From IMG/VR virus record IMGVR_UViG_3300030098_005752, positions 1-28,313 of that record: a stretch of 28,313 nt of DNA. The stretch is one strand, 5' to 3'. Every line of letters begins with the position of its first letter. Position 1 is the first letter of the stretch. Source of the stretch: a virus. The translations under genes and the position numbers were made by a program. Below the pieces are notes generated by a model. The model was given only the letters and a program-made list of their open reading frames with translations. It ran no database searches and had not been told where the DNA came from. This document shows, piece by piece, positions 4,874 through 22,177 of the stretch.

Positions 4874-5376
4874 TGATTGAAATAGAAATAACACAAGATA
4901 TGAAGAAACGAGCTTGGAGAAAAGCTCGTCAGATGGGAGAAATTAACAACTCGATTACAAAAGGCGACGGCAACATTGCCGGGTTCTTGGGTGAGGAAGT
5001 AGCTAATGATATTATAAAGGGGGACATCAGCAACACCTATGATTACGATATCGTAAAAGATGGTGTCAAATGCGATGTCAAAACAAAAAGATGCACTAGC
5101 GAACCGAAACCCTACTACGAATGTTCCGTCGCTGCTTACAACACTAAACAAAAATGTGATTACTATGTTTTTGTCAGGCTGGAAAATATAAACGGTAGAT
5201 GGACAAGGGCTTGGGTTCTTGGATGCTGTAACAAAAATAAATATTTCAAGAATGCTAGATTTCTAACCAAGGGTCAGAAAGACGGAAACAATAGCTTTAG
5301 AGTTAAGGCGGATTGTTACAATATGGAAATACAAAATCTTGAGCCGATGGAGACGATATGGGCACAGCAGAGTTAG
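4873..5376 (+). CDS. Small PD-(D/E)XK nuclease-like protein
   Basis: This 167-residue protein shows a minimal restriction-endonuclease-like core: FLGEEVANDI (E41/E42), then YDYDI (D57, D59), then CDVKTKRC (D68-V-K70), giving the E...D...DxK pattern expected of the fold. It could be a resolvase-like or structure-specific nuclease; the exact substrate is not visible. It has eight cysteines, several in the second half (for example GCC), with no clear metal-site spacing. It overlaps the upstream nuclease gene by one base (TAATG) and the next gene by 19 bases. The pairing with the Cas4-like gene suggests the two act in the same recombination or degradation step; that is inference. Confidence 0.6.
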   Translation: MIEIEITQDMKKRAWRKARQMGEINNSITKGDGNIAGFLGEEVANDIIKGDISNTYDYDIVKDGVKCDVKTKRCTSEPKPYYECSVAAYNTKQKCDYYVFVRLENINGRWTRAWVLGCCNKNKYFKNARFLTKGQKDGNNSFRVKADCYNMEIQNLEPMETIWAQQS

Positions 5377-6275
5377 TAGATCTAAATAAAGAATTCCACC
5401 TAGGAAACGGTTTTACTCTTGAGACATGCGAAAGGTTGGCTAAGCTGCTTACTGATGAGTATAGGGTTATTGTCAAGTATGATATGGCTCAAGATATGCC
5501 GCTGTATTCAGACAACAAGCTAAACGTGGTAATCTCCACATCGAGGGAAACACACGACGTTCCCAACGAATTCCACAGAGAAGATGTGCTGATCATATTT
5601 CAGCATTACTTCATGCTTGATACGTGGGGGCACCCTGTACCCAACCCTCTTGTTTTCCCGCTTCCGTTAGGACCGTTTAATGATGACAAAGAACAAATCA
5701 TCAAACCTCTTTCAGAAAGAAAATACGATTTTTCTTTTGTGGGACAGATTCCGGACACGGGTACGAGAGATTGCTTTAAGCGCAACCTAGACAAGCTAAT
5801 TGAAAATACTGACGATAAGTTTAAATTCTTTGTTCGTTACACGGACGGTTTCGCTAGAGGCTTGGACGCAAAAGAGTACCTAAGTATTCTGGGAGATTCT
5901 AGAATTTCACTATGTCCACAAGGAGCCAATTCTCTTGAGACTTTTCGCTTTTTTGAGTCGATAATGATGGGAGCCATACCTCTTGTGGAAATTCTACCTA
6001 AACTTTGGTATTACGAATCGTCGCCACACTTTAAGGGGCCGTGGAGAGATCTTGATAGGACGTTGAGTCGCTCGTTAAACTTCTTACAATCGCCAAACTG
6101 TAGACAGCTTCTCTACCAAGTTGGCGATTACTGTAATAAAGTTTTGACGCCTCAAAACTTGGCGAAACATCTACAAACACAAATTGAGCACCGAAGAAAA
6201 CACGTTAACACCCACAGAGAAACACTGGGTCAGATGAGGAAAAAATTGAATGAGCTGGATTCCCATAAACTGTAA
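5358..6275 (+). CDS. Exostosin-like glycosyltransferase (GT47-type fold)
   Basis: This 305-residue GT-B enzyme ends with the exostosin-like donor-binding region RISLCPQGANSLETFRFFES followed by MMGAIPLV, where the glutamate and the small-residue turn usually contact the sugar nucleotide. The middle segment KYDFSFVGQIPDTGTRD is typical of this group. It is clearly homologous to the protein at 23033-23836: they share the PLPLG turn, DRKY/ERKY, the CPxG motif, SxETFR and WYYE/WFYE. The start at 5358 follows GGAG at 5348-5351. It overlaps the nuclease gene by 19 bases and the polymerase gene by 26 bases. It is the second sugar transferase found inside the replication cluster. Confidence 0.75.
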   Translation: MGTAELVDLNKEFHLGNGFTLETCERLAKLLTDEYRVIVKYDMAQDMPLYSDNKLNVVISTSRETHDVPNEFHREDVLIIFQHYFMLDTWGHPVPNPLVFPLPLGPFNDDKEQIIKPLSERKYDFSFVGQIPDTGTRDCFKRNLDKLIENTDDKFKFFVRYTDGFARGLDAKEYLSILGDSRISLCPQGANSLETFRFFESIMMGAIPLVEILPKLWYYESSPHFKGPWRDLDRTLSRSLNFLQSPNCRQLLYQVGDYCNKVLTPQNLAKHLQTQIEHRRKHVNTHRETLGQMRKKLNELDSHKL

Positions 6276-7842
6276 AACTCATTTTAGTCTACTTAAAGCA
6301 TTTTGCAAATGTGATAAGCTTGCACAAAAGTGTAAAGAGTACGGATACAAAGCGTGTGTTATGGCAGACACAGAGTCCCTCTCTGGAGCTATGGACTTTC
6401 ATAGCGCATGTCGCAAACATGGCATCAAGCCAATTTTAGGATGTGACTTCGGGGCGTACATGCTAATAGCGAAAAACAAGCAGGGATGGTTCGACCTTAT
6501 TCGTATAGTTTCGCAGGGGGGTCTTAATCTTTTCAAAGACATGGCTGCAAAGGGTAATTTGATTTGCGTAACAGGCGAACATCAGAACGGTTATCACAAG
6601 CTATTCGGTAAGAATCATTTCTCGTACCCATACCCTGATCGTGGTATTTATTATGTAACCCAAGATGAGGCGGAAGCACACCGCATTCTGCTATGCTCGG
6701 GTATGAAGACGACACTACCAAAAGTTCACTCCTTGTTATCGTCGGGCGAAAGTGTAGATAACCAAGAGTTTTTTGAGAAGGACGTTTTTTATCTGCCAAG
6801 CCCGGAAGAAGTATCCGACACTCAAGATGAGATTGAGCTGCTCAATACTATTGTTGATATGTGTGAAGACTACGAGATAGCGTCAAAGCCCATGCTGCCA
6901 AAGTTTCAGTGCCCCAACGATATGGATGAGGACGAATATCTAACGCAGTTGTGTCGGGAAGGATGGAAACAAAGACTTATTAATTCCGGTAAAATTGATA
7001 CACCAGAAAACAAGGACACGTATCTACAAAGAATTAAAACAGAACTCGATGTTATATTCAAGGCCGAATTATCTGGGTATTTCTTGATTGTTCAAGATAT
7101 AGTAAACAGTGTTAAACGACGCGGATGGTTAGCTGGTCCCGGTCGAGGGTCAGCCGCCGGATGTTTGGTGTCTTTTTTGGTAGGGATTACAGAAGTTGAC
7201 CCTATTGAGTATGGCTTAATCTTTGAAAGGTTCTATAACGAAGGTAGAAATACAGATGAGTACATCTCATTACCGGACATCGATATGGATGTTCCAGCCG
7301 AACATCGAGACGAGGTGATTAATGATATTCGAGAAAAATACGGACATGAAAAAGTTGGACAGATGATTACCTTTGGTAGACTTCAGGGAAGAGCCGCCCT
7401 AAAAGAGGTTCTACGTATCAACGATGCTGTTTCCTTTATGGAAATGAACAGAATCACGGAAAGTATTCCTGATGAAGCAAAGATTTCTGACCAACTAGAG
7501 TTAATGGAAGACAAATCCATCATTCGATGGACTTTGGAAAACGAACCAGACGATCTTAAAAACTGGTGCCTGCTGGACGAAGAAGGAAACCTGAGCGGTG
7601 CCTTGGCACATCTTTTTGAGCAGGCCATAAGAATAGAAGGGACAAATAAGTCTCAGGGAAAACATCCGGCTGGCGTTATTATATCCAAGCACTGCCTATC
7701 GGATGTATGCCCCATGACGGTTGACAAGTCAGGCGACCCCGTGGTGGCTTTTGAAATGACTGCACTTGAGGCCCAAGGTCATGTAAAGTTCGATGTTCTT
7801 GGGATTGATTTACTTAGCAAGATAATGGATATTTCTCAATGA
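6250..7842 (+). CDS. dnaE: DNA polymerase III alpha subunit, N-terminal half (PHP and palm)
   Basis: This 530-residue protein is the first half of a bacterial-type (C family) replicative polymerase. It contains a PHP domain (about residues 1-230), then the palm with the GPGRGSAAG loop and PDIDMD carrying D343 and D345. Near the end is VKFDVLG with D515, matching E. coli DnaE D401, D403 and D555. All three catalytic aspartates are thus in this half. It stops 15 residues after D515, exactly before the fingers domain, which is encoded at 9446-11005. The PHP HxH motif is replaced (IPINCKTHFS where E. coli has VHLRVHSDYS), so PHP nuclease activity is probably lost. GAGGA at 6236-6240 precedes the ATG. 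Confidence 0.92.
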   Translation: MSWIPINCKTHFSLLKAFCKCDKLAQKCKEYGYKACVMADTESLSGAMDFHSACRKHGIKPILGCDFGAYMLIAKNKQGWFDLIRIVSQGGLNLFKDMAAKGNLICVTGEHQNGYHKLFGKNHFSYPYPDRGIYYVTQDEAEAHRILLCSGMKTTLPKVHSLLSSGESVDNQEFFEKDVFYLPSPEEVSDTQDEIELLNTIVDMCEDYEIASKPMLPKFQCPNDMDEDEYLTQLCREGWKQRLINSGKIDTPENKDTYLQRIKTELDVIFKAELSGYFLIVQDIVNSVKRRGWLAGPGRGSAAGCLVSFLVGITEVDPIEYGLIFERFYNEGRNTDEYISLPDIDMDVPAEHRDEVINDIREKYGHEKVGQMITFGRLQGRAALKEVLRINDAVSFMEMNRITESIPDEAKISDQLELMEDKSIIRWTLENEPDDLKNWCLLDEEGNLSGALAHLFEQAIRIEGTNKSQGKHPAGVIISKHCLSDVCPMTVDKSGDPVVAFEMTALEAQGHVKFDVLGIDLLSKIMDISQ

Positions 7843-8072
7843 CAACAAACAGTATAACGGTACAAAAACAAGAGTACAAATCTGTCATTTTTTCCGGATG
7901 CTCAATTGAATCCAATGGGGTTTCAATATGTAATCTAAACGATTATGTAACTAGGGTCACTGGACGTTCCGCCCTGTATCAGGTGTGGTCTGACAGACAC
8001 AGGGTCTACGATGTGTTTCACAACATTGACGATGCCGTCAATAAATTTTTAGAACTTAAAGATAAGAGGTAA
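7839..8072 (+). CDS. Small hypothetical protein
   Basis: This 77-residue protein is not recognised. Its start overlaps the stop of the polymerase N-terminal half (ATGA), so it is probably translated by coupling. It is predicted soluble, with a beta-rich N-terminal half (VIFSGCSIESNGVSICNL) and a short C-terminal helix (DDAVNKFLELKDKR). No metal site, membrane segment or homing-endonuclease motif (LAGLIDADG, GIY-YIG, HNH) is visible. Sitting between the two polymerase halves, it could be a polymerase accessory protein or simply a passenger. Composition is similar to its phage neighbours. Confidence 0.6.
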   Translation: MTTNSITVQKQEYKSVIFSGCSIESNGVSICNLNDYVTRVTGRSALYQVWSDRHRVYDVFHNIDDAVNKFLELKDKR

Positions 8073-8078
8073 TCAACC

Positions 8079-8774
8079 ATGGCTAATTTCCGGGACATTA
8101 TTGTATTCGACTTTGAGACCGGTGGGGCCAATCCGCACACATGTCAACCTACGCAAATTGCAGCCGTGGCAATCCATGCCAGAAAGCTTGAATTGCAACC
8201 GGGAGGTGTGTTTAATAGCGAGATGAGACCCATTATAGATGACGAGAAGGCTATTAAAGCCGGAGTTGCCCCGCTTGAAGATAAAGCTCTGGAGATTACA
8301 CGGAAGACTAGAGAGGGTCTAGCTAAAGCCCCCCTACCAAAAGGCGTTTGGAAAAAGTTTGGAAAGTTTTGTGACAAATACAACTTTAAAAAGACAAGCT
8401 GGACAGCTCCAATAGCTGCGGGCTACAACATCAACGGTTATGATATGCCAATTGTTGAGAGGATGTGTCAGCAATATGGTCCACTCGACGAGAAAAAGAA
8501 TTGTCAGAAAATTTTTAACCCAATCTTTACCATCGACGTTATGCAGCATATTTATTGTTGGTTTGAAAACAACCAAGATGTCAAAGGTTATAGCATGGAC
8601 TATATGCGTGACTACTTTGGTATGAGTAACGAAAGCAAGGAAAACGCTCACGATGCATTACAGGACGTTAAAGACACGGCCAATTTAATGATTAAGTTTT
8701 TAAAGTTGCAGCGAAATTTACTCAAGAAGGTTAAGTTTGAAAAAGCGTTTGCTAAAGGAGAGACGTATGTCTGA
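8079..8774 (+). CDS. DEDDh 3'-5' exonuclease (DnaQ/epsilon-like)
   Basis: This 231-residue exonuclease has all five DEDDh residues: D11 and E13 in VFDFETGG (Exo I), D122 in GYNINGYDMP (Exo II), and H191 and D196 in NAHDALQDVKDT (Exo III). It would proofread for the polymerase whose two halves flank it, as epsilon (DnaQ) does for DnaE in bacteria. That pairing is supported by location and by the apparent loss of PHP active-site histidines in the polymerase. A lysine-rich C-terminal helix (LLKKVKFEKAFAKGE) follows the catalytic domain. A six-base gap separates it from the 77-residue gene, and it overlaps the next gene by 8 bases. Confidence 0.9.
   Translation: MANFRDIIVFDFETGGANPHTCQPTQIAAVAIHARKLELQPGGVFNSEMRPIIDDEKAIKAGVAPLEDKALEITRKTREGLAKAPLPKGVWKKFGKFCDKYNFKKTSWTAPIAAGYNINGYDMPIVERMCQQYGPLDEKKNCQKIFNPIFTIDVMQHIYCWFENNQDVKGYSMDYMRDYFGMSNESKENAHDALQDVKDTANLMIKFLKLQRNLLKKVKFEKAFAKGETYV
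8754..8760 (+). promoter_or_regulatory. Strong ribosome binding site for the FkbM-type gene
   Basis: AAAGGAG lies six bases upstream of the ATG at 8767 and sets that start over the in-frame ATG at 8737. It lies inside the 3' end of the exonuclease gene. Confidence 0.7.
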
Positions 8775-9453
8775 TGGATTTTACGATTTTATAGAAATTG
8801 GTACGTCAGATTTTGATACGCTGATAGAAAAAGCTACAGATGAAATGAAAGGCATTTCAATAGATCCTTTACAGCATTTTTTAGATAGGTTGCCAAATCC
8901 TAAAAATTGCACCAAAGTTTGTGCTGCTATATCAGATGAACAGTGTGAAATTGATTTACATTACATAAAAGATGAGGATATAGTAAAGTATAATCTGCCT
9001 TATTTTGTACGAGGTTCTGCAAGTTTAGGACGTAGGCATCCTTTTATTTTAACCCTCCTAGCAAACGAAGCAGCAGATAATCCAATACCGGAACCAATAG
9101 ACCCGGATGAAATTTATTCCAAGAAAAAAGTACCAGTAAAAAGACTAAAAGATATTATTGATGAATACAAAATTGATGAAATTAAAATTTTAAAGATAGA
9201 CGCAGAAGGTTGTGATGATAAAATTCTTTTAGATTATTTTGAGTGTTGTGAAAAAGAAAATTACCCATTTCCATACTTTATCCAATATGAACACGTACTA
9301 CTACCTAGCGTAAGAAGAAAAAATTTAGAAGAAACAGCAAAAGCACTTCGCTATCATGTTCAGGCTAAAAGATTAGATGATACAATACTCATCAAGAAAA
9401 AAGAGGGAAAAATTTGTCCAGCCTGTGGCGGGAAGGGTAGAATAGATGAATGA
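8767..9453 (+). CDS. FkbM-type methyltransferase with zinc-ribbon-like tail, AT-rich
   Basis: This 228-residue protein resembles FkbM-family SAM-dependent methyltransferases, which usually O-methylate sugars. FIEIGTSDFDTLI is motif I, GISIDPLQ is the acidic ribose-binding strand, and IKILKIDAEGCDDKIL is the hallmark FkbM segment. The C-terminus ends with CPACGGKGRID, half of a CxxCxGxG metal-binding repeat, which the family does not need. Base composition differs from its neighbours: five 60-base lines inside the gene that I counted by hand gave 22-35% G+C, against 47-50% in two flanking lines. It therefore looks like a later arrival. It lies between the exonuclease and the polymerase C-terminal half and overlaps both. 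Confidence 0.75.
   Translation: MSDGFYDFIEIGTSDFDTLIEKATDEMKGISIDPLQHFLDRLPNPKNCTKVCAAISDEQCEIDLHYIKDEDIVKYNLPYFVRGSASLGRRHPFILTLLANEAADNPIPEPIDPDEIYSKKKVPVKRLKDIIDEYKIDEIKILKIDAEGCDDKILLDYFECCEKENYPFPYFIQYEHVLLPSVRRKNLEETAKALRYHVQAKRLDDTILIKKKEGKICPACGGKGRIDE
9431..9437 (+). promoter_or_regulatory. Ribosome binding site of the polymerase C-terminal half
   Basis: GGAAGGG lies eight bases upstream of the ATG at 9446. It falls within codons for the GGKG of the upstream protein's zinc-ribbon-like tail, so the tail-coding bases also serve translation of the polymerase half. Confidence 0.6.
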
Positions 9454-11005
9454 ATTTGATATTAATAATTTTGACGATACAGATGTCTGGGATCTAATCT
9501 GTGATGGGCAGACTAAAGGGGTTTTTCAGCTAGAGTCTAGCTTGGGAAAGCATTGGGCTAAGCAGGTTAAGCCTAGAAATATTAAAGAGCTTGCAGCACT
9601 CATTAGTCTGATTCGTCCCGGATGTCTAAAGGCCAAGGACGCAAATGGCAAGAGCATGACACAGGTATATGTGGATAGAAAGTCAAACAAAGAACCTGTA
9701 ACCTATCCATCTTCAGCCTTGGAGGAAATACTCTCTGAAACCTATGGCGTGCTCGTTTACCAAGAGCAATCAATGAAGATTGCACAAAAGCTTGCGGGGT
9801 TTGACCTGAAGGAAGCTGACGCCCTACGTAAGGCTATCGGCAAAAAGAAGGCGGATCTCATGGAGAAAGTAAAGAAATCTTTCCTAGAGGGCGCTGCTAG
9901 TCAAGGAATCGTTACCACAGAGGTGGCTGAAGAGATCTTTTCTTGGATTGAAAAGTCAAACCGATACGCTTTCAACAAGTCTCATGCCGTATCATATGCT
10001 ATCAACGCATACTGGAGCGCATACTGCAAAAACTATCGAAGAGTAAAGTTCTATGTGTCGTATTTAAATCATTCCGACAGGAAACCTGACTCCCAGAGAG
10101 AAATGAAAGAGCTGATAGTCGATGCTAAGTTTTCAGATGTTGAGGTATATCCTCCGCGCCTTGGACATCTTCACACAGACTTTTACTCAGAAGGCAACAC
10201 AATATATTTTGGACTTAACCATATAAAACATGTGGGTAAAAATGAATGCGAAAAAATAGAGAAGATATGCGCAGAGGCAGATGTAAGTCTGTATTCGTGG
10301 ATGGATGTTCTCACCAAGATCATTTACAAAGGAAGACTTAACAAAAGATCCGCCATCGCGCTCATATCTGTTGGAGCATTTAATGGTGTTAATAACACAA
10401 AAGACAGACAGGCCATGCTTTATGAGTATGATAGTTGGCGAGATTTGACGGCCAGAGAGCAGGAGTACATATACAGCAATAGATATGAATTTGATCAGAA
10501 TTCATCTTTAAAGGACGCCATGTCGAGCCTTATAAATAACTGCAAAATAAACAGCAGGAGGATGTCCTCTGTGCTAAATATTAAGCAGATGCTGGACAAG
10601 CCTCCTCACGACCTCAAAGATAGCATTCCAATGATCGCCAGCGGAGAGACAGAGTACTTAAGCTGTGCGCTAACTTGTAGCAATGCTGACAGTTTTGATA
10701 TAAATTTTGCAAGTTCTCTGTGCAAAGACATAGCTAGAGGCACTATAACAGGTAAGACAAGGCTAGCCGCACAGATCAATACGATAAGATTGCATAAAAC
10801 AAAAAGAGGCAAGAATCCGGGGCAGTTGATGGCATTCTTGTCTGCCGAGGACGGCAGTGGTGAACTTGACTCAATAACAGTATTTCCAGAGTGCTACGAC
10901 AAACACAAGGATATACTAATCGAAGGCAATACTGTTTTGATGTCTGGAGAAATATCTAAAAGGGAAAATACCTCACTAATAGTGAACAAGGTTTCCCAAA
11001 TTTGA
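9446..11005 (+). CDS. dnaE: DNA polymerase III alpha subunit, C-terminal half (fingers to OB fold)
   Basis: This 519-residue protein continues the polymerase begun at 6250. It opens with a DDTDVWDLIC segment and GVFQLES (residues 25-31), the start of the fingers. It then has RPGCL, GVLVYQEQSMKIAQ, ADALRKAIGKKK and YAFNKSHAVSYA (residues 174-185), all standard DnaE motifs. The C-terminus is an OB fold (LAAQINTIRLHKTKRG ... GELDSITVFP). The tau-binding domain of E. coli DnaE is missing, and no obvious clamp-binding peptide was found. Compared with E. coli DnaE, the two halves together lose only a non-catalytic linker helix at the break. It has its own start and ribosome binding site, so it should be made as a separate subunit. 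Both halves add up to 1049 residues. Confidence 0.92.
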   Translation: MNEFDINNFDDTDVWDLICDGQTKGVFQLESSLGKHWAKQVKPRNIKELAALISLIRPGCLKAKDANGKSMTQVYVDRKSNKEPVTYPSSALEEILSETYGVLVYQEQSMKIAQKLAGFDLKEADALRKAIGKKKADLMEKVKKSFLEGAASQGIVTTEVAEEIFSWIEKSNRYAFNKSHAVSYAINAYWSAYCKNYRRVKFYVSYLNHSDRKPDSQREMKELIVDAKFSDVEVYPPRLGHLHTDFYSEGNTIYFGLNHIKHVGKNECEKIEKICAEADVSLYSWMDVLTKIIYKGRLNKRSAIALISVGAFNGVNNTKDRQAMLYEYDSWRDLTAREQEYIYSNRYEFDQNSSLKDAMSSLINNCKINSRRMSSVLNIKQMLDKPPHDLKDSIPMIASGETEYLSCALTCSNADSFDINFASSLCKDIARGTITGKTRLAAQINTIRLHKTKRGKNPGQLMAFLSAEDGSGELDSITVFPECYDKHKDILIEGNTVLMSGEISKRENTSLIVNKVSQI

Positions 11006-11015
11006 AAGGGAAGAC

Positions 11016-11324
11016 ATGAATAGATGTCATTTTTTAGGGAAGCTCATAGGAAATCCAGAGCTGTTTGAAGACTACAATAGCGACGTAGTTAACTTCAAAT
11101 TAGAAGTTGAAGAATATAGAAAAGACAAAGAAGGTATGAAAAAAAGACGAGTGGACATCCTAAACTTTGAAGTGTGGGACAGTGCCGCCAGAACCATTTA
11201 CAAGTATGCTTCGGCCAGCGACCTTCTATCGGTAGAAGCTATCGCTAGGAACGTCAATGGTAAAAATAGTGGGCACACCGTTTTCCGTGTCACGAACTTT
11301 AAAATTATTCCGAGAGGTGTGTAA
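11016..11324 (+). CDS. ssb: Single-stranded DNA-binding protein (SSB-like)
   Basis: This 102-residue protein has the layout of a bacterial SSB OB fold: MNRCHFLGKLIGNPEL at the start (the family's MNxVxLxGRLxxDPEL), VVNFKLEVEEY, then ILNFEVWDSAARTIYKYAS (the family's FxVxxWGKxAExxxxYxxKG), and a final strand FRVTNFKII. It lacks the usual flexible acidic tail (DDDIPF in bacteria) that recruits partner proteins, so it is either a minimal SSB or acts only as a fold. GAAAGGGAAG precedes the ATG. It closes the replication module; the next gene starts the glycan cluster directly after its stop. Confidence 0.8.
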   Translation: MNRCHFLGKLIGNPELFEDYNSDVVNFKLEVEEYRKDKEGMKKRRVDILNFEVWDSAARTIYKYASASDLLSVEAIARNVNGKNSGHTVFRVTNFKIIPRGV

Positions 11325-12971
11325 ATGGGAAGAAGAAAACGTGTACTCTTCTGCTCAGAGGCGTCTTGGCTCGGCACCGGATATTCCGTATACACCAAAG
11401 AAGTCTTATCTAGACTGAATCAGATTTCAGATCTAGAGGTGGCCGAGCTGTCCTGCTATGTAGACAAAAATAATCCAAAGATACAATCGGTGCCTTGGAA
11501 AGTTTTTCCAAACAAACCATTGCCAGACGACCCCCTGTTTCAAGCGTATAACGCAAACGCTAGTGCTCAGTTTGGGGACCACTCTTTTAACAATGTGCTG
11601 TTATCTTTTCAGCCAGACATTGTTATGGATATTCGAGACTGGTGGATGATAGAGTATCAACAAAGATCTCCTTTCCGTGACTTCTTTCACTGGGCGATTA
11701 TGCCTACGGTTGATGCGAAACCTCAAGCCTCACAATGGATTAATACATATGCTTCAGCAGATGCTGTATTCACATACTCGGAATTTGGCAGGGATGTTCT
11801 ACTTGACCAATGCGACAGTATAAACTACATAGATATAGCTTCGCCCGCAGCCAGCAACACATTCCATCCAGCTCCCGACAAAGTTTCACACAGGAACAAA
11901 ATGGGGATCTCGCCCGACTGTATAGTGGTCGGCACAGTTATGAGAAATCAGAAAAGGAAGCTTTATCCCGATCTATTTAAATCATTTCGTAGATTCCTTG
12001 ATCAGATCGACGATAATAGTGTATTCCTCTACTGCCACACATACTATCCAGACGTGGGATGGAACATACCCGAACTGCTCGACGAATACGGTTTAGCCAG
12101 TAGGGCTTTGTTCACATACAAGTGCAAATCTTGCGGGGCAATTTCGGTAGACTTCTTTCAAGACACCGTTCATGCGTGTCCGTCTTGTGGAAACTTTGCA
12201 AATACATTGACAGGGGTAAATAATAGCGTTACCGAAGAAGAACTAGCCCAAGTCTACAACCTTTTTGATATATATGTACAGTACGCCAACAGCGAAGGTT
12301 TCGGAATGCCTCAGTTGGAAGCCGTGCATTGCGGAGTTCCTCTCATTTCCACGTATTATTCCGCGATGGAATCTGTGGTAGATAATATCGGAGCCATAGG
12401 TATTGAACCGTTGGCGTACTACAAGGAGTGTGAAACCGGTTGTAACCGTGCCGTGCCCAATAACGACAAGTTTGTACAGGAGTTAGTAAAGCTTCATCAG
12501 TGTCGGGACCGTTTGCCGGAACTTGGTGGCCAAATGAGAGATGCTGCACTAAGGGAATACAACTGGGATAAAACAGCCAATGCTTGGCTGAAGCATATCA
12601 ACACAGTACCCATAAGAGACGCTCGTGAAACTTGGCTTTCGCCTACAAAAATAATTGAACCAGCTCCGGGTATTCCTGAAAACATAGAATCAAATGTAGA
12701 CAGAGTAGACTTCTTGTTTAATCATGTGTTATGCAAACCCGAATGGATTGGTGGATATTTGTGGAAAAAGGTTTTAAAGGATTGCACATTTGGTTACAGG
12801 TGTGAGAACGTCAACAAGGACTTCTACTTTAACGAGTCGCATCTTCAGTCCACGCAAGGAAATCAACCATTTAATTGGGATGGAGCATACCAAGAACTGA
12901 AAACATTTAGAAATCAGATAAATGACTGGGAAAGAGCTAGGGCACAGCTTGTACAGAGAGGAGTTGTGTAG
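11325..12971 (+). CDS. GT4-type glycosyltransferase with inserted zinc ribbon
   Basis: This 548-residue GT-B enzyme begins with VLFCSEASWLGTGYSVYTKEV, the glycine-rich acceptor loop. It carries the GT4 donor site YANSEGFGMPQLEAVHCGVPLI, where the two glutamates contact the nucleotide sugar. Between the two Rossmann domains is a four-cysteine zinc ribbon, C267-x2-C270-x14-C285-x2-C288, not part of standard GT4 enzymes. A C-terminal extension of about 120 residues (DRVDFLFNHV onward) has no assigned function. It starts directly after the SSB stop codon. The zinc ribbon may mediate contact with a protein or nucleic acid partner; this is inference. Confidence 0.85.
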   Translation: MGRRKRVLFCSEASWLGTGYSVYTKEVLSRLNQISDLEVAELSCYVDKNNPKIQSVPWKVFPNKPLPDDPLFQAYNANASAQFGDHSFNNVLLSFQPDIVMDIRDWWMIEYQQRSPFRDFFHWAIMPTVDAKPQASQWINTYASADAVFTYSEFGRDVLLDQCDSINYIDIASPAASNTFHPAPDKVSHRNKMGISPDCIVVGTVMRNQKRKLYPDLFKSFRRFLDQIDDNSVFLYCHTYYPDVGWNIPELLDEYGLASRALFTYKCKSCGAISVDFFQDTVHACPSCGNFANTLTGVNNSVTEEELAQVYNLFDIYVQYANSEGFGMPQLEAVHCGVPLISTYYSAMESVVDNIGAIGIEPLAYYKECETGCNRAVPNNDKFVQELVKLHQCRDRLPELGGQMRDAALREYNWDKTANAWLKHINTVPIRDARETWLSPTKIIEPAPGIPENIESNVDRVDFLFNHVLCKPEWIGGYLWKKVLKDCTFGYRCENVNKDFYFNESHLQSTQGNQPFNWDGAYQELKTFRNQINDWERARAQLVQRGVV

Positions 12972-12974
12972 ACT

Positions 12975-14057
12975 ATGAAGATACTATACATAGGAAACTA
13001 CAGAGATGGAACCGGATGGGGCAATGCGTGCGTTAATAATATACTAGCGATTGACTCCGTAGGCATCGATGTTGTTCCGAGAGCTATTACCTTTGAAAAC
13101 GAAACACAAGACTATCCTACTAGAGTCAAAGAGCTGGAACAATCGTCCACTGAGGGTTGTGATGTTTGTATTCAGCACACTCTACCACATCTGTACTCCT
13201 ATGACGGACGATACAAAAACATAGGGTTTGCTGCGGTAGAAACCAGCAACTTCAAAGATTCTGGATGGCACCGCCATATGAATATAATGGACGAAATATG
13301 GGTTCCAAGCACCGCATGTAGGGAAGCGTGCATAAACAGCGGTGTCAAAGTTCCTGTTAAGGTTGCACCACACTCGCTCGACGTTAGTCAGTATGTTGAC
13401 AATAACGGCAACAAGATACAAAACCTACTCAACACATTCAACTTTGCTTTTGTTGGAGAATTTGTAGAAAGAAAAAATTTAAAGGCTTTAATCCGCGCGT
13501 TTCACATGGAGTTCGATTACGGCGAACCGGTTAATCTTTTGATCAAGACCTCAAAGGCAAGCCTAGAGGATGTGCAAAAGTATGCAGCACAAATCAAGAT
13601 GGGACTTAAAATTCGACAAAGATACAAAGAGGAGATTGTCATCGCTGGGAGACTTGAGACCACTGATTATATTTCAGTTTTGTCTCAGTGTCACTCATTC
13701 GTTATGCCTAGCAGGGGCGAGGGTTTTTGTATTCCAGCGTTAGAAGCTATGGCATTGGGTATGCCTGTTATTCATACGGCGTCCAACGGTATGGACGATT
13801 TTTGCTATGGAGCCGCTGTCCGCTCTTACTCACAGCCGTGCTTTGGAACTACCGACACGCTGTCCAATATAGATACCGCCAAAAGCGATTGGCGTGAAAT
13901 AGATATTAGAGCGTTATGCTCGGCCATGAGGAAAGCTTTCAATCGGTGGGTTACAGGAGATATGAACAAGGAAAAAGAATCCGCTATCGAGCGAGCGTCT
14001 AAGTACAGTCACAGCTCGATTGGGGCACAACTAAAGGAGTTGTTGAATGACAAGTAG
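12975..14057 (+). CDS. GT4-type glycosyltransferase
   Basis: This 360-residue GT-B enzyme has a short glycine-rich N-terminal loop (GNYRDGTGWGNAC), the interdomain segment FAFVGEFVERKNLKALIRAF with the conserved KN, and the donor site SRGEGFCIPALEAMALGMPVIHT with the E-x7-E pattern. It resembles phage and bacterial GT4 mannosyl- or glucosyltransferases, but the sugar cannot be read from sequence. GAGAGGAG lies about 12 bases upstream of the ATG. It overlaps the next gene by 11 bases. Confidence 0.87.
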   Translation: MKILYIGNYRDGTGWGNACVNNILAIDSVGIDVVPRAITFENETQDYPTRVKELEQSSTEGCDVCIQHTLPHLYSYDGRYKNIGFAAVETSNFKDSGWHRHMNIMDEIWVPSTACREACINSGVKVPVKVAPHSLDVSQYVDNNGNKIQNLLNTFNFAFVGEFVERKNLKALIRAFHMEFDYGEPVNLLIKTSKASLEDVQKYAAQIKMGLKIRQRYKEEIVIAGRLETTDYISVLSQCHSFVMPSRGEGFCIPALEAMALGMPVIHTASNGMDDFCYGAAVRSYSQPCFGTTDTLSNIDTAKSDWREIDIRALCSAMRKAFNRWVTGDMNKEKESAIERASKYSHSSIGAQLKELLNDK

Positions 14058-15105
14058 AGCAACACCTGAAGCAATACGATCTATAATGCGAAGGCAACAT
14101 ATAAAAGACGAACAGAAACTTAATATATTGACGTTTTGCACACACGAAAGATATGAGCAACAGTTGTGCAAGACTGGTCACAACTTTTACTGTCTTGGCT
14201 ACGGAAAAACTTGGGACACTGATTACGGAGAGATTCCGGACAATTATCATATACTAAGCAGTGTGCCGCCCCCGCACGTTGATATAGATTTGATTTTGTG
14301 CCACACCGCCTGTCAGAGGCTGGAAATTTCAAAGAGGATAAGAAGCGATCTCAATATTCCTATCGTTCTTCACACTCACACACTACCAGACATAAGACAC
14401 GATGTACCATCTCAGGTTGAAAATTTTAAAACCATATCTAGCGACGTAGATCAAATATCATTTATCTCGGACTTTAATAGAGGCGCATGGGGGTATGATT
14501 CCACTTTACGTGGTCCAAATCGCAACGGAGCCGTGTACATCGAACACGGTATAGACTTTGATTTCTGGACAAACTTTGACGAAGTGCAGAGAGATAATGT
14601 TTGCTTATCGGTGGTTAACGATTGGCCAAATCGAGACTGGTGTTGCGGTTGGGAACTTTGGAAACAGACTGTTGGACTGAACGATGGTTCCAGAACCGGC
14701 GCAGATCTGCCAATACGTGTATTTGGTAAAAGTCCCGGATTGTCTGAACCGGCATCTTCCATAGAACATCTGAGACAGATTTATCACTCCTCTCGGATAT
14801 TCTACAACACATCATTACACTCTCCGGTCCCCACTGTATTAATGGAGGCTATGGCTTGCGGGTGCGCCATTGTTTCTACAGAAACGTGTATGATTCCCGA
14901 GATAATTGAACACGGAAAAAATGGACTAATGTCCAACGACCCCAAAGAGCTAAGGAGTTTCTTAGTAAAGTTAACACAAGACGAGGACATGGCCAAAGAA
15001 CTAGGCAAAAATGCACAGGAAACCATAAAGGAAAGGTATAACTTGGCACAGTTTGTTAACAAGTGGAATAACTTCTTTTATTCAGCCATCGAACAATATT
15101 CATAA
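14047..15105 (+). CDS. GT4-type glycosyltransferase
   Basis: This 352-residue GT-B enzyme has the donor-site segment SPVPTVLMEAMACGCAIVSTET and PEIIEHGKNGLMSNDP, a strong GT4 signature. The N-terminal domain (about residues 20-180) has VLHTHTLPD and ISFISDFNRGAW, consistent with acceptor binding. AAAGGAG at 14033-14039 precedes the ATG by seven bases. The three GT4 genes from 11325 to 15105 are adjacent and probably act in successive steps on one glycan, but the order of sugars is not visible. Confidence 0.88.
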   Translation: MTSRATPEAIRSIMRRQHIKDEQKLNILTFCTHERYEQQLCKTGHNFYCLGYGKTWDTDYGEIPDNYHILSSVPPPHVDIDLILCHTACQRLEISKRIRSDLNIPIVLHTHTLPDIRHDVPSQVENFKTISSDVDQISFISDFNRGAWGYDSTLRGPNRNGAVYIEHGIDFDFWTNFDEVQRDNVCLSVVNDWPNRDWCCGWELWKQTVGLNDGSRTGADLPIRVFGKSPGLSEPASSIEHLRQIYHSSRIFYNTSLHSPVPTVLMEAMACGCAIVSTETCMIPEIIEHGKNGLMSNDPKELRSFLVKLTQDEDMAKELGKNAQETIKERYNLAQFVNKWNNFFYSAIEQYS

Positions 15106-15114
15106 GGACTAAAA

Positions 15115-15537
15115 ATGAGAATCTACCTTTCCCCCACTAAACCAGAAGAAAAAACTCACCAATGGGTAAGCAACATCGCCGTACTTAACGGTGTCGTGGA
15201 AGATTGCGAGGCAACGTCCATTATCTGCGACAATTTTCTATCAACCTTTACTCAAGAAGAACTCGTTCCGGTAATGGCGAAAATCTTATCAAAAATGAGG
15301 CTAAACTGCGAACTGATTATCGTTCAGCCAGATATTGAGATTCTGGCTCATAAGTTTGGTCGAGAAGAGATTTCACTAGAATTCCTGAATGATGCTCTAT
15401 TTAGAGTTGGAGCAATTAAGAGCGTGACCTCGGCGGAGCAGATACGACAAGCTCTTCCCGAAGTTGTTCAAATCACACATCAGAATTTTGACGTGGCAAC
15501 ATCTACCATCACAATCAAGGCTAAGAGGGTTCAATGA
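15115..15537 (+). CDS. Short methyltransferase-like protein, lacks SAM motif I
   Basis: This 140-residue protein resembles the second half of a class I methyltransferase: DCEATSIICDNFLSTFTQEELV followed by AKILSKMRLNCELIIVQPD matches the strand 4, helix and strand 5 portion in which a 'lkpgG' turn usually precedes the last strand. The N-terminal glycine-rich SAM loop is absent (it starts at MRIYLSPTK). It is therefore either a catalytically inactive partner subunit or a degenerate protein that has kept a full-length frame. AAGGA lies six bases upstream of the ATG. It ends with ATGA overlapping the next gene. The function is unknown. Confidence 0.5.
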   Translation: MRIYLSPTKPEEKTHQWVSNIAVLNGVVEDCEATSIICDNFLSTFTQEELVPVMAKILSKMRLNCELIIVQPDIEILAHKFGREEISLEFLNDALFRVGAIKSVTSAEQIRQALPEVVQITHQNFDVATSTITIKAKRVQ

Positions 15538-16334
15538 TACCATATACTGTTTGCAAGGGTTGCGTTTTTGCACAGGGTTCTCCGGAACAACAATCATCAT
15601 GTCAGCTAGATAGACCCATTAAACTCGGACTGCAAGACGACACAGAAGACGGCCATTTTGTACTGAAGCGGGTATGTTCGACATATCGGCCAGACGAATG
15701 GCTAAGCGACCTATCGTTAGCCGAATCGGAAGACATTGTGGCGACGGTTCGCAAGGAGGTCATTCCTCCTGTGGGATTTTTTATTATCCTGAAAACAGAA
15801 GAGGATCATGCGATTGGAAAGCTTGAAGCCACATTGATAGATATTAAAAATCAAGATCTAGAAAGTAGCCCGTCTTTTGTCGTGGTAATTACGGACAAAG
15901 TAGAATATAATGAAGAAGCGTTTGCACTACTGGACTCCATGTTTGAATACGACGAAACCAAGTATCATATCGTACAGCTTGAAATGACACCAGACACTTT
16001 ACATAAAAGAATTGATGAAGCCTTCAGGCACGCTAAAAACGGTTGGGCATACGTCACATCCTCTGGCGAAAGCGTTGCGTCGGACTTAATGACTCGTATT
16101 GACAAACGAGTAAATGAAGACATGAAAAAGCTAGTAGTGATTAAACCATACGATGCAATCAACGGACTACTGTTTCAGACGACCGTGTTTAAGTTTGTCA
16201 ACGGAAACAAGAGTAAGCTTTACGAAGACGAGGTGCAAGATTCTAGATCCTTTTTGGAAAAGATAGAAGAAGCCTCACAAAGGAGCGATGACAACGAAAC
16301 ATTTATCACTTGGGAGGAATTTAATGCTTCCTAA
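15534..16334 (+). CDS. Cys-cluster protein with degenerate glycosyltransferase-like domain
   Basis: This 266-residue protein is not assigned to a named family. The N-terminus carries four cysteines, C7-x2-C10, C23 and C48, which could bind zinc or an iron-sulfur cluster. From about residue 75 it looks like a GT-A fold: VGFFIILKTEED, then SFVVVITDK, and GWAYVTSSGESVASDL where a DXD-containing strand would be expected. Here no DXD is present. A following GLLFQTTVFKFVNGN resembles the acceptor region of GT2 enzymes. It would then be a non-catalytic partner of the true GT2 enzyme encoded next, which overlaps it by 11 bases. This is inference from the pattern only. Confidence 0.4.
   Translation: MIPYTVCKGCVFAQGSPEQQSSCQLDRPIKLGLQDDTEDGHFVLKRVCSTYRPDEWLSDLSLAESEDIVATVRKEVIPPVGFFIILKTEEDHAIGKLEATLIDIKNQDLESSPSFVVVITDKVEYNEEAFALLDSMFEYDETKYHIVQLEMTPDTLHKRIDEAFRHAKNGWAYVTSSGESVASDLMTRIDKRVNEDMKKLVVIKPYDAINGLLFQTTVFKFVNGNKSKLYEDEVQDSRSFLEKIEEASQRSDDNETFITWEEFNAS
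16312..16318 (+). promoter_or_regulatory. Ribosome binding site deciding the GT2 start
   Basis: GGGAGGA lies five bases upstream of the ATG at 16324. An in-frame ATG at 16288 would add 12 residues before the first beta strand and lacks a comparable site. Confidence 0.65.
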
Positions 16335-17073
16335 AGTAGCTATTATCTGCGCGAATTACAACTATGGCGACTACATTTTGGCTGCTATGGAAAGTGTCGC
16401 CAAACAAACATACCAAGGAGAACTGAGTCTATATGTCGTAGACGATGGATCGTCAGACGATTCATGGGAAAAAATTTCCAATTACTACGAAAGCCAGAAG
16501 GAAAAAATATCTAGCCCCACTACACCCCCTTGGCTTTACATCAAAAGAATCGAAAACTCTGGAGCAAGTATTGCACGCAACACAGCAATCGAAATGTGTT
16601 GGGGTTGGGCCGATATCATCGGCGTTTTAGATTCAGACGACGAATACTATCCTGAAAAAGTAGAACGTCTAGTATCAAAGCTTGTGGAGCACGATGAAGT
16701 CGGTGTTGCTTATGCGGATTATGACATACAAACACCAACACACTGCAAGCGGGAGTTTAAAAACTCTTTTAACAGGCAAACGCTAATGGAGAGATGTATT
16801 GTACATAGCAACTCGCTGATAAAAACAAAATATCTCCGGCAGGTAGTTTTGCCGAATGGTGAGATTTTCGACAGCAGACTGCACGGCCCGGCAAGTAAGG
16901 GATTTTTTGGCTGCACTGAGGACTACGACTTGTGGATTCGTCTGTCAAAAGTGTGCATGATCTCCCATGTGCCGGAATGTTTGGCGAAAGCTAATGAGCA
17001 TGGCAATAATCAGTCTTTGAAAATGACTCAAGAGATATTTCAGCACCACGCTCAGATTTTAGGCAATAGATAA
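16324..17073 (+). CDS. Family 2 glycosyltransferase
   Basis: This 249-residue GT-A enzyme starts with VAIICANYNYGDYILAAMES, then YVVDDGSSDDSWEKI (D40, D41), RIENSGASIARNTAIE and GVLDSDDEYYPEKV, whose D103-S-D105 is the metal-binding DXD. C-terminal CTEDYDLWIRLS has the ED pair used as the catalytic base in GT2 enzymes. All catalytic landmarks are present, so it should be active on an unknown nucleotide sugar. It overlaps its neighbour upstream by 11 bases and the next gene by one base (TAATG). Confidence 0.9.
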   Translation: MLPKVAIICANYNYGDYILAAMESVAKQTYQGELSLYVVDDGSSDDSWEKISNYYESQKEKISSPTTPPWLYIKRIENSGASIARNTAIEMCWGWADIIGVLDSDDEYYPEKVERLVSKLVEHDEVGVAYADYDIQTPTHCKREFKNSFNRQTLMERCIVHSNSLIKTKYLRQVVLPNGEIFDSRLHGPASKGFFGCTEDYDLWIRLSKVCMISHVPECLAKANEHGNNQSLKMTQEIFQHHAQILGNR

Positions 17074-17816
17074 TGAAAACATCTAGCTTTACAACACCAA
17101 TCACTAATAAGCGAAGCAATAAATCTCACATAACGAGTATCAAGAAATCGCAAATCAACATGCAAGACACTGCTGTTGTGTTGCTGGGTGCGGGTATTGG
17201 ATCAAGAATACGCTCCCACGAACCCAGAAGTTTGATAAAAATAGAGAACAAGACTCTGATACAACATCAAGTAACAACCATACGCGAACTTTTCAAGGAG
17301 CCAGAAATAATTAGCGTTGTTGGATGCAAAGCACAAAAGGTGATAAAAAAAATTCGCGGAGATGTCAGAATAGTAGAAAACCAGATCTACAACGATACCA
17401 ACGCTTCGGAAAGTATGAGGCTCGCCTTTAACAGTAGCACAAGGTCTAGCTTTCTTTTTATGCATGGCGATCTTTACTTTAATAAGAACACGCTCAATGT
17501 TGACTATAGTAAATCTTTTATACTGGTAGACAACAAGGGTATGATTTCCGACAAGGAAGTAGGCGTAACTGTATGCGACAGTCGAGCGACTATTTTGTCA
17601 TACGGACTACCCACCAAGTGGTGCCAAATTGTATATGTTACAGGCAGAGAACTCAAAATGTTGCAGAACATATTTAACAAGTTTGATGACATTCAGAAAA
17701 AGATGTTGTCATTTGAAGTAATCAACAGGATGATATCCATGGGCGCAACTTTCAAATGTTATGAACCAGATGAAATGTCAATCCTAGAGATAGATCGAAT
17801 AAAGGACATATCCTAA
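17073..17816 (+). CDS. Sugar-phosphate nucleotidyltransferase-like protein
   Basis: This 247-residue protein looks like an NTP-transferase domain that makes an activated sugar or choline (LicC/RmlA type): AVVLLGAGIGSRIRSHEPRS is the nucleotide loop, LFMHGDLYF carries the metal-binding aspartate, and the C-terminus has ILEIDRIKDI, typical of these enzymes. The conserved lysine of the G-x-G-x-R-x(4)-P-K signature is arginine here (R52), an unusual change that may reduce activity. A second possible start (17160) would remove a basic 29-residue extension; neither start has a strong ribosome binding site. The product sugar nucleotide is unknown. Confidence 0.65.
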   Translation: MKTSSFTTPITNKRSNKSHITSIKKSQINMQDTAVVLLGAGIGSRIRSHEPRSLIKIENKTLIQHQVTTIRELFKEPEIISVVGCKAQKVIKKIRGDVRIVENQIYNDTNASESMRLAFNSSTRSSFLFMHGDLYFNKNTLNVDYSKSFILVDNKGMISDKEVGVTVCDSRATILSYGLPTKWCQIVYVTGRELKMLQNIFNKFDDIQKKMLSFEVINRMISMGATFKCYEPDEMSILEIDRIKDIS

Positions 17817-18865
17817 TGAAGGTAATGATTTCGAGTGACGGAACTCATGCTCATTTTTTCCAAAGGGTTTCGTGGCTAAATGCTTTTACGGCCTGTGGTA
17901 TCGAGACCCGAATGTGGGACTGTAAATCCAGTTCACCATTTGACGCCTTTGATTCATTTGAGCCAGATATTTTTCTGGGACAAACCTACAATCTAGACAA
18001 CGCTCTTTTAAAATGTATTTCGGAAAGACCTCACCTCAAGGTTGGACTAAGAGCTGGGGATTGGGGAGACCATGAAGATTCCGTAGATAAGTCCAAATAC
18101 AACATTCTGTTCTGCTCAAAAAAAGAGAAAGATGTTTTAAAAAAGCTAAAAGACGAAACGGGCAAGCCGGATTTTGTTCATATCCATTATCCGCATGATG
18201 CTCTAATGAAAACCCACAATCACTTTGGGTCTATCGGTATCGACGCTGTGTCTCTCATGATGTGCGCTGACACTACTATGTACTCAGGTGGACAATACGA
18301 TCCTACGCTCGAATGCGACTTGGGTTTTGTTGGAGGCTACTGGCCCCACAAGGGTTTGGTAATTGACAGATATTTACTACCCTTACTACACCCAGTAGGA
18401 CGATACAAAGCTAAAATCTTTGGAAACCAACCGTGGAAAGTGCCACAGTATTGTGGAGTTCTGTCGGACCAAAATATGAAAAACCTTTTTGTTTCCGCAA
18501 AGATATGTCCGAATCTCAGCGAGCCACACGCTCACGCATTTGGAATAGATGTAAACGAAAGGATTTTCAAAGTTTTGTGTGCCGGAGGGTTTTGCATATC
18601 AGATAATGTGGAAGCGTATCGTATGTTTGGAGACGGAATTGTGATCGCAGAGTCTCCACAACACTTTTCAGAGATGGTCGAATATTACATTAGTAATCCT
18701 GTGGAAAGGTCAGCCATAGCTAAGAGAGGGCAACGATATGTAAAAACCAACCATACAGGATTCCACAGAGCGTTGCACATATTGAAGAGTTTTGGCTTTA
18801 ACAGTGGACCAGAAGTAGACGCGATTTCCTTGAAGGTACAAGAATTACACAGGGATTACACATGA
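17816..18865 (+). CDS. CgeB-like GT-B glycosyltransferase
   Basis: This 349-residue protein has the C-terminal donor domain of the CgeB / Glyco_trans_1_2 type: KICPNLSEPHAHAFGIDVNERIF followed by LCAGGFCISDN and a later FSEMVEYYISNP helix. The N-terminal Rossmann part has PDIFLGQTYNLD and VGLRAGDWGDHE. This group occurs in phage and bacterial glycan loci. It starts at the TAATG overlap with the preceding gene and ends with ATGA overlapping fcl. The donor sugar is unknown; proximity to GDP-fucose synthase is suggestive only. Confidence 0.7.
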   Translation: MKVMISSDGTHAHFFQRVSWLNAFTACGIETRMWDCKSSSPFDAFDSFEPDIFLGQTYNLDNALLKCISERPHLKVGLRAGDWGDHEDSVDKSKYNILFCSKKEKDVLKKLKDETGKPDFVHIHYPHDALMKTHNHFGSIGIDAVSLMMCADTTMYSGGQYDPTLECDLGFVGGYWPHKGLVIDRYLLPLLHPVGRYKAKIFGNQPWKVPQYCGVLSDQNMKNLFVSAKICPNLSEPHAHAFGIDVNERIFKVLCAGGFCISDNVEAYRMFGDGIVIAESPQHFSEMVEYYISNPVERSAIAKRGQRYVKTNHTGFHRALHILKSFGFNSGPEVDAISLKVQELHRDYT

Positions 18866-19821
18866 AAAAAGTATTGGTAACGGGCGGTCGTGGATTTCTA
18901 GGAAAGGCCGTTTGCAAGAAGCTCAAGCAGAACTCGCAATACACAGTGGTGCCACTGGCCGGTAAAGCCGAATGGGATCTGACAAAGCAAAGGTATGTTG
19001 ATTACGCCCTAAAAGAGTTCGAGCCTGATGTGGTGGTACACTTGGCGGCTAGGGTTGGTGGCATTGGGGCCAATAAAGACAATCCCGGCCTCTTTATGTA
19101 TGAAAACCTAGCAATGGGTATGAACCTTATTGAATCTTGTAGAAAATACGATAAGCTTCAAAAATTCATCATGGTCGGGACCGTATGTGCATATCCTAAA
19201 TTTACGCCGGTTCCATTCAAAGAGGACGACATTTGGACTGGCTACCCAGAGGCAACAAATGCGCCTTACGGGATAGCAAAAAAGACACTGATGGAAATGC
19301 TGATTGCATACAGCGCCCAATACAATTTTAACTGCACAAATCTTATTCCCGTAAACATGTATGGACCACATGATAATTTTGATCCTAGAATCAGTCATGT
19401 TATACCTGCCATGATACTAAAATTTGACAAGGCTATTGATAGGCAGGAAGACACTGTTGAGCTGTGGGGCACAGGTAAGGCTAGTAGAGAATTTTTATAC
19501 GTAAATGATTGCGCTAGAGCCATCGATAGAGCAGTGGAAATAAACACTACGCCACATCCCATAAACATAGGGACCGGATCTGAATGTACAATTCAACATC
19601 TGGCTACAAAAATTGCCCACATCATGGGATATGAGGGCACCATAAAGTTCAACGAAAACGGGATGGACGGTCAACCCAGAAGGTGTCTAGACACATCTAG
19701 AGCAACTAGAGTTCTAGGATTTGAAACGAAAACAGACTTAGACAAAGGATTGCACGACACAATAAGCTGGTACTACAAAAACAAGGAAAAGTTTGTTGAT
19801 TACTTCGATCATATTCAGTAA
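18862..19821 (+). CDS. fcl: GDP-L-fucose synthase
   Basis: This 319-residue enzyme converts GDP-4-keto-6-deoxy-D-mannose to GDP-L-fucose (epimerase plus NADPH reductase). It has the NAD(P)-binding TGGRGFLG loop, AARVGGIGANK, GTVCAYPKF, and the SDR catalytic pair Y136-x3-K140 in PYGIAKK. C109 and H179, the epimerase acid/base residues of the E. coli enzyme, align at the same numbers; the SDR serine S107 is threonine here. MYGPHDNFDPR, TGKASREFLYVND and DGQPRRCLD are fucose-synthase signatures. The partner dehydratase (gmd) is 7 kb downstream. Overlaps upstream gene as ATGA. Confidence 0.96.
   Translation: MKKVLVTGGRGFLGKAVCKKLKQNSQYTVVPLAGKAEWDLTKQRYVDYALKEFEPDVVVHLAARVGGIGANKDNPGLFMYENLAMGMNLIESCRKYDKLQKFIMVGTVCAYPKFTPVPFKEDDIWTGYPEATNAPYGIAKKTLMEMLIAYSAQYNFNCTNLIPVNMYGPHDNFDPRISHVIPAMILKFDKAIDRQEDTVELWGTGKASREFLYVNDCARAIDRAVEINTTPHPINIGTGSECTIQHLATKIAHIMGYEGTIKFNENGMDGQPRRCLDTSRATRVLGFETKTDLDKGLHDTISWYYKNKEKFVDYFDHIQ
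19783..19787 (+). promoter_or_regulatory. Ribosome binding site for a TTG start
   Basis: AAGGA lies five bases before a TTG at 19793 (or eight before a second TTG at 19796). No ATG is available before the first conserved beta strand, so the glycosyltransferase at 19793 is taken to use a TTG start. Confidence 0.55.
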
Positions 19822-20641: not shown

Positions 20642-21462
20642 TAGACGTAAAGGAGTTCGTAAGGGGTGAAAATTTTCCCAATGTTTGTGATATGAGGGTC
20701 GGCACAGAACCAAATCTTGATTACGAAGAGCAACTTGAGCCACCCGACAAAAAACACGTCAGTGTATACGCAAAGTCTGAAAATCTGTCCACCGCATTCA
20801 ACTTAATTTCCCGATTTCCCGACAAAGTTTTTACCTTTGTCTCACACAACAGCGACATGACGATAAACACATGCACAATGCCTGAAAATATCGTAAGATG
20901 GTTCGCTCAAAATAGAAACACAGATCAGCCCAAAATTTATTCATTGCCTATTGGTCTTGAAAACAAATACTGGCACCCCTATAAAGATGAGGTGATGCAG
21001 AGAACTCGAATTGAATCTATGTACGGAGGGCATCCAGCAAGATCAATCAATTGCTTTGCACAGTTCAACTGCACAACCCATGGGGAAAGATATCACGCCC
21101 TAACGACAGTAGACCCAAGCGTCTGCGATACTATGCTGGGAAGCAACGGCAACAAAGAGCAACATTTAGACTTTTGTAAGAATCTTATAAAGTATGGATT
21201 TTGTTTGTGCCCCAGAGGCAACGGAATAGACACACATAGGCTGTGGGAGGCTTTGTATATGGGGTGTATTCCTATATGTAAAAAATATCACGCCCATCAG
21301 TTTGAACACGACCTTCCGATACTGTTTGTTGACGAATGGAGCGATATCACACCAGAACTGTTGTACGAAACTTACCACCAAAAGAATAAAAGGTTGTTGT
21401 TTGATTCCGAGATCCTGAAGATGTCCTACTGGACTGAAAAGATTAATACATATGAATTATGA
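20638..21462 (+). CDS. Exostosin-family glycosyltransferase
   Basis: This 274-residue protein has the exostosin donor segment YGFCLCPRGNGIDTHRLWEA followed by LYMGCIPIC and PILFVDEW, the strongest part of the GT47 signature. The upstream part has the FTFVSHNSDM strand and YSLPIGLENK turn. It is shorter than eukaryotic exostosins, which carry a second domain. It overlaps the next gene by 11 bases. It is similar in plan to the proteins at 5358 and 23033 but less close to them than they are to each other. Confidence 0.78.
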   Translation: MIDVKEFVRGENFPNVCDMRVGTEPNLDYEEQLEPPDKKHVSVYAKSENLSTAFNLISRFPDKVFTFVSHNSDMTINTCTMPENIVRWFAQNRNTDQPKIYSLPIGLENKYWHPYKDEVMQRTRIESMYGGHPARSINCFAQFNCTTHGERYHALTTVDPSVCDTMLGSNGNKEQHLDFCKNLIKYGFCLCPRGNGIDTHRLWEALYMGCIPICKKYHAHQFEHDLPILFVDEWSDITPELLYETYHQKNKRLLFDSEILKMSYWTEKINTYEL

Positions 21463-22174: not shown

Positions 22175-22177
22175 CAA

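Follow-up and report, generated by a model that had tools for sequence, protein, structure and literature searches.

A phage DNA polymerase III alpha subunit encoded in two genes on either side of an exonuclease gene

Can a DNA polymerase III (Pol III) alpha subunit that is encoded in two separate genes make one enzyme, and does it need splicing to do so? The question is raised by the IMG/VR virus record IMGVR_UViG_3300030098_005752. Its whole 28,313-base sequence (hereafter the window), which probably represents only part of a larger genome, contains an N-terminal half (alpha-N) and a C-terminal half (alpha-C) of Pol III alpha 1.6 kb apart, with stop codons and other genes in between. An earlier reading made from these letters alone (the sequence-only reading) took them for a genuine intein-free two-gene alpha whose products probably work as two subunits. 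Comparative evidence from 273 loci supports this proposal, and we consider it highly probable that the two products form an obligate two-chain alpha, which assembles without splicing and joins its own exonuclease in a polymerase-exonuclease core. The features of the split gene in the window are as follows.

6236..6239, plus strand: Shine-Dalgarno-like GAGG before the ATG of alpha-N (read directly)
6250..7842, plus strand: alpha-N, N-terminal half of Pol III alpha (PHP, palm, thumb), 530 amino acids (Pfam PF02811 and PF07733; AlphaFold2; VIA-align)
7135..7161, plus strand: GPGRGSAAG motif, alpha-N residues 296-304 (invariant in 43 non-redundant relatives)
7273..7290, plus strand: PDIDMD with catalytic D343 and D345, equivalent to Taq D463 and D465 (Taq alignment; relatives)
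7792..7794, plus strand: third catalytic aspartate D515, equivalent to Taq D618 (Taq alignment; relatives)
9430..9437, plus strand: Shine-Dalgarno-like GGGAAGGG before the ATG of alpha-C (read directly)
9446..11005, plus strand: alpha-C, C-terminal half of Pol III alpha (fingers, HHH, OB), 519 amino acids (Pfam PF17657 and PF14579; AlphaFold2; VIA-align)
9518..9538, plus strand: fingers motif GVFQLES, alpha-C residues 25-31 (near-invariant in 43 relatives)
9965..9988, plus strand: YAFNKSHA, intact in the window and a split-intein site in some relatives (motif alignment)

Both open reading frames (ORFs) lie where the sequence-only reading had placed them, and its statements on the break point and the motifs are correct. 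Pfam assigns PHP and DNA_pol3_alpha to alpha-N, and DNA_pol3_finger and HHH_6 to alpha-C; the OB fold is sub-threshold in Pfam but clear by fold comparison. The domain order of DnaE-type enzymes (PHP, palm/thumb, fingers, HHH, OB) is therefore kept across the two genes, and the departure from that type is that two ORFs, here and likewise in 273 loci, take the place of a single polypeptide. PHROG 405 is matched consecutively (247-609 by alpha-N and 627-1063 by alpha-C). The catalytic triad of C-family Pol III alpha (D343, D345 and D515) and the GxGRGSAAG motif are present. Among 43 non-redundant members of the family the triad is invariant, and the catalytic and template-binding motifs as a whole are invariant or nearly so, which bears out the earlier claim that the core motifs had been retained. 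Each half also has a start codon and a Shine-Dalgarno-like sequence of its own, as had been read.

The break falls at the palm/fingers boundary, in a linker of variable length. Alpha-N ends 15 residues past D515, the distance that the sequence-only reading gave. When aligned to Taq alpha (2hpi), alpha-N runs as far as residue 626 (query residue 523, 7 residues short of its end), and alpha-C starts from residue 645 at query residue 4; in the alignment to E. coli alpha, alpha-N ends at 563 (query 523) and alpha-C starts at 591 (query 9). Compared with either enzyme ~8-12 residues are missing, at most about 12, so the earlier statement that only a linker had been lost stands. In fused phage and bacterial references, ~14-32 residues separate the two profile ends at this linker. 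Single-chain AlphaFold2 models, made with family alignments, have a predicted local distance difference test (pLDDT) score of 91.1 and a predicted template modelling (pTM) score of 0.88 for alpha-N, and 90.1 and 0.81, respectively, for alpha-C. VIA-align superposes the alpha-N model on residues 4-570 of E. coli alpha 2hnh (Z 27.2, 3.5 A over 489 residues) and the alpha-C model on 5lew 611-933 (Z 23.1, 3.3 A over 319 residues); a longer, looser match of alpha-C is to residues 583-1073 of E. coli 5fku_A (Z 21.7). The predicted folds put the break where the palm joins the fingers.

To collect related loci, viral contigs were scanned six times and genome contigs once, and mapping by hidden Markov models gave 273 loci with both halves. 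These are partly dependent, as many are near-copies and some contigs were recovered repeatedly; 33 representatives remain at less than 70% alpha-N identity. A search of phage genomes for the same break point had been suggested, and the same linker break was found in 273/273 loci, at identities down to ~37% and on contigs of up to 205 kb, including a second contig identical to the window (L001). No fused alpha was found inside the split clade among these loci. The median pairwise ratio of non-synonymous to synonymous substitution rates (dN/dS) is 0.034 for alpha-N and 0.032 for alpha-C. Exactly one alpha-N is present in each of 18 contigs of 59-154 kb, and no family A or B polymerase is recognisable in these contigs, which may be incomplete.

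A DEDDh exonuclease gene also lies between the halves in 273/273 loci, and in most of them it has a small gene for company. The two corresponding genes in the window are listed below.

7839..8072, plus strand: 77-amino-acid protein, a conserved cassette member, whose ATG overlaps the alpha-N stop (ATGA)
8079..8774, plus strand: DEDDh 3'-5' exonuclease, DnaQ/epsilon-like (RNase_T, 5.6e-12; phrog_192 'DNA polymerase exonuclease subunit')

The exonuclease carries the DEDDh active site, with D11, E13, D122, H191 and D196 near-invariant in 33 representatives. The 77-amino-acid protein has no Pfam or PHROG match, and homologues of it were found in 137 loci of the first locus set. Its length alone had suggested an analogue of theta (HolE); there is no evidence for this, and we do not claim it. 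The gene order is alpha-N, small gene, exonuclease, alpha-C in 155 of the 273 loci and alpha-N, exonuclease, alpha-C in 94, while in a few deep lineages (L211, L214, L236) the small gene sits 3' of alpha-C; other loci have other cargo genes at the three cassette junctions. Between the stop codon of alpha-N and the match to alpha-C lie 675 to 5337 bases (median 929). Gene overlaps in the window are typical of coupled translation, and exonuclease and alpha-C overlap in 153 of the 202 loci where they are adjacent. The sequence-only reading, right about the two genes, overlooked the exonuclease and the usual 77-amino-acid protein, that is, the replicase cassette, and with it the universality of the split in a large uncultured clade.

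In a tree of the concatenated halves, the 33 split representatives make up one side of a branch with a support of 100 and a stem length of 0.73, and a second tree without the longest branches separates them from the fused enzymes in the same way. Alpha is fused in 77 bacterial loci and in most of the reference phages examined, the exceptions being the sporadic splits described below. The only divided cellular enzymes mentioned in a survey of about 2000 bacterial genomes are split by inteins or fragmented sporadically (PMC3919608). Judged from these sequences, the simplest reading is that the split arose once, on the stem leading to a large clade of uncultured phages, and has been retained since. 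The split is a stable, ancient and lineage-wide state, and its readings as a broken gene or an intein product are rejected. As for the clade itself, searches with the halves of the window, L224 and L260 found no closer isolate above about 33% identity, a Terminase_6C search gave no match, and we make no taxonomic placement because the TerL of one clade member is only ~26% identical to Bacillus phages. Split cassettes were also seen on two short contigs, one binned as Lokiarchaeota (L320, 926-5304; JABXKB010000087.1) and one as Flavobacteriales (L319, 3227-7503; NZWA01000066.1); both are probably mis-binned phage, and possible host leads.

In the two-chain alpha that we propose, alpha-N would supply PHP, palm, thumb and all three catalytic aspartates, and alpha-C the fingers, HHH and OB. 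The genes would form one operon around the proofreading exonuclease gene, and their coupling suggests that the two halves are most likely synthesised together. The chains would then bind through the palm/fingers interface; since the break sits in a variable linker, a natural domain boundary, only a covalent tether would be lost. Gene position suggests that the exonuclease is the proofreading partner of this two-chain alpha, and the resulting core would probably be the phage's main replicase. Physical assembly, activity, the exonuclease partnership and the replicase role are what we infer here. The 77-amino-acid protein is kept in the cassette even when relocated, and so may be a further subunit. 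Several points weigh against the proposal: the models cover single chains, so that the complex is deduced; no isolate of the split clade is known; another polymerase could lie in the missing sequence of the long contigs or belong to an unsearched family; and a trans-spliced RNA could have diverged too far for Rfam to recognise it.

A more elaborate version, which we hold only tentatively and think rather less likely to be true than false, is an obligate complex of four products. An ancestral dnaE would have acquired the exonuclease gene at its palm/fingers hinge, the 77-amino-acid protein would be the fourth subunit, and assembly would possibly depend on the exonuclease. If true, this would mean that an entire lineage of phages stably uses a two-chain alpha that needs no splicing.

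The halves might instead act apart: alpha-N could, for example, be an enzyme in its own right and alpha-C a factor that binds DNA, or each half could pair with the host alpha. They are separate genes, several genes apart in some loci, and the beta clamp PF02767 had no match in 14 contigs, so host factors are probably used. A palm without fingers, however, is not expected to polymerise in C-family polymerases, and both halves keep catalytic or template-binding motifs and always co-occur in order; we regard independent action as very unlikely.

Just as improbable, in our view, is that the halves are rejoined into one mature chain by RNA trans- or cis-splicing or by a split intein. The idea gains some credit from relatives whose alpha-C or alpha-N genes carry split inteins (at FNK|SHA and GPGRG|SAAG, respectively) or a contiguous intein at RPG, and from other phages in which the DxD motif is where alpha is split, a homing endonuclease gene lying between the parts. 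At the palm/fingers break, however, no locus shows the intein blocks expected of a cyanobacterial-type intein: the termini are short variable tails (DLLSKIM plus a few residues, and a start at FDINNF), and this absence is informative because relatives bear inteins elsewhere in these genes. No Rfam intron was found at 7500-9700, where the sole match is a chance snoRNA (E 0.75), and the gap holds ordinary genes that vary among relatives but always include the exonuclease. The relatives' inteins sit in invariant motifs and are sporadic, whereas the palm/fingers break is in a variable linker and universal. The sequence-only reading had rightly seen no intein residues at the break and an intact cyanobacterial site (YAFNKSHA); it missed the inteins that relatives carry in the same genes, including the one at FNK|SHA by that site.

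FNK|SHA split inteins cut alpha-C in L037 (10012-12859), L039 (3497-6440), L052 (8235-11124) and L219 (9485-12337). The insert in L039 contains a NUMOD3/DUF559 endonuclease-like gene, so that alpha is spread over three genes beside the cyanobacterial DnaE intein site. GPGRG|SAAG split inteins are found in alpha-N of L230 (5992-8759, with a TnsA-like endonuclease-like gene in between), L286 (3936-7040), L303 and L304, and contiguous inteins at RPG in alpha-C of L210 (9615-11972) and L222 (8500-10863). Those intein inserts that were scanned hold endonuclease-like genes. Alpha-N is interrupted at PDIDMD with no visible intein in L231 (5998-8846) and L236 (5277-8403; with a LAGLIDADG gene), by either an intron or a true fracture.

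Less probable still is a gene broken by insertion of a homing endonuclease or other cargo, with pieces that decay or are partly functional. Phages are prone to such fractures, and HNH/endonuclease VII-like genes adjoin the halves in some relatives. Yet homing endonucleases are sporadic here and the core gene in the break is the proofreading exonuclease, which sets the locus apart from an endonuclease-fractured gene; a dN/dS of about 0.03, intact motifs, universal retention down to ~37% identity and the lack of any other polymerase found also speak against decay. Selection and conservation data have already largely refuted it.

An assembly error or sequencing frameshift is refuted, and its probability negligible, since nothing at the window locus points to one (though such errors probably exist elsewhere) and the same break is common to 273 loci from many samples, identical contig L001 included, with whole genes between the halves. 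Overlapping or neighbouring-frame splits that are likely sequencing frameshifts were seen in Staphylococcus phage MVC_VPHSA2 (L421, 459-3565) and in dnaE of a metagenome-assembled genome (L360, 2734-5928).

Two-gene replicative polymerases have several precedents. In cyanobacteria, DnaE is encoded by two genes cut in the Y-CFNKSH region and is rejoined by protein splicing; in the window this site is intact and the break has no intein residues, while some relatives have split inteins at FNK|SHA. The split gene 43 of T4-like phages gives a family B replicative polymerase in two phage genes with no known splicing. Alpha is also found in two annotated genes in cultured phages, namely Tybeckvirinae (ATCC 8014-B2, Satyr), Staphylococcus RQ1 and Bacillus KLEB27-3. 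Unlike in the window, those cuts are inside PDID or GVFQLES, and the genes that separate the parts are GIY-YIG-like, LAGLIDADG-like or HNH; alpha of Staphylococcus PhiSepi-HH3 and Bacillus Jayan is likewise cut at invariant motifs, and an endonuclease lies between in several such phages. No Rfam intron was found in the Tybeckvirinae and Staphylococcus splits, so a divergent intron is possible there.

One cultured phage, Rossellomorea phage phiT1 (gp20 and gp18; PV767480), has an alpha cut in the same palm/fingers linker with no endonuclease between. Only an ORF of 49 amino acids (L400, 4707-4856) and no exonuclease separates its halves, unlike in the window. The phiT1 enzyme is 35-37% identical to intact Moorella, gut and Bacillus phage enzymes and about 28% to the window. 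It fell outside the clade in the first tree and was an unsupported sister (72) in the second, which does not allow the claim of an independent split, and we dropped it; a common origin with the split clade is neither shown nor excluded.

Group 2.2 jumbo phages have a split minimal Pol III alpha alongside a Pol B (Iyer et al. 2021, PMC7824862). As here, a phage encodes its C-family polymerase as two separate proteins, which have been proposed to come together as the enzyme. Theirs is a minimal catalytic module in distant genes, divided into NTP-binding and Mg2+/template-binding parts, whereas the window encodes a full DnaE-type enzyme with PHP, HHH and OB, cut between palm and fingers with an exonuclease between; the presence of PHP sets it apart from the minimal core, and neither Pol B nor Pol A was seen in the 18 possibly incomplete contigs. 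A split phage Pol III alpha as such is thus already a known kind. As far as records and papers show, what is new is the full-length enzyme, the palm/fingers site fixed lineage-wide and the exonuclease always in between; a literature search, with most subscription papers outside its reach, found no report of this arrangement.

Two further genes in the window adjoin the cassette.

8767..9453, plus strand: FkbM-type methyltransferase (PF05050, 2.4e-08), overlapping the exonuclease stop and the alpha-C start
11016..11324, plus strand: SSB-like protein, directly downstream of alpha-C (PF00436, 5.3e-08)

The FkbM gene is variable local cargo, found outside the window only in L001 and L088 (same sequence) and in L002; its product has a zinc-finger-like C-terminal tail, CPACGGKGR. 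Upstream of alpha-N are genes for a DnaB-like helicase, a primase, a deoxynucleoside monophosphate kinase and a PD-(D/E)XK nuclease, and together with the SSB-like protein they mark this part of the window as a replication region. We note that very many glycosyltransferase and sugar-nucleotide genes are present at 1976-2929, 5358-6275 and 11325-27843, some amid the replication genes; they include GT1, GT2, exostosin-like, fucosyltransferase, GDP-mannose dehydratase, epimerase and sulfotransferase genes.

Nearly all bacteria make replicative Pol III alpha as one chain, and cyanobacteria rejoin theirs through inteins; in this phage lineage the fingers would need no tether to the palm. With both inteins and the linker break, the same genes display two different evolutionary paths to a divided polymerase, and the split cassette can serve to mark a big lineage of uncultured phages. 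The palm/fingers break suggests where Pol III alpha could naturally be cut to build two-part constructs, and these natural, co-inherited halves make the assembly of a C-family polymerase directly testable.

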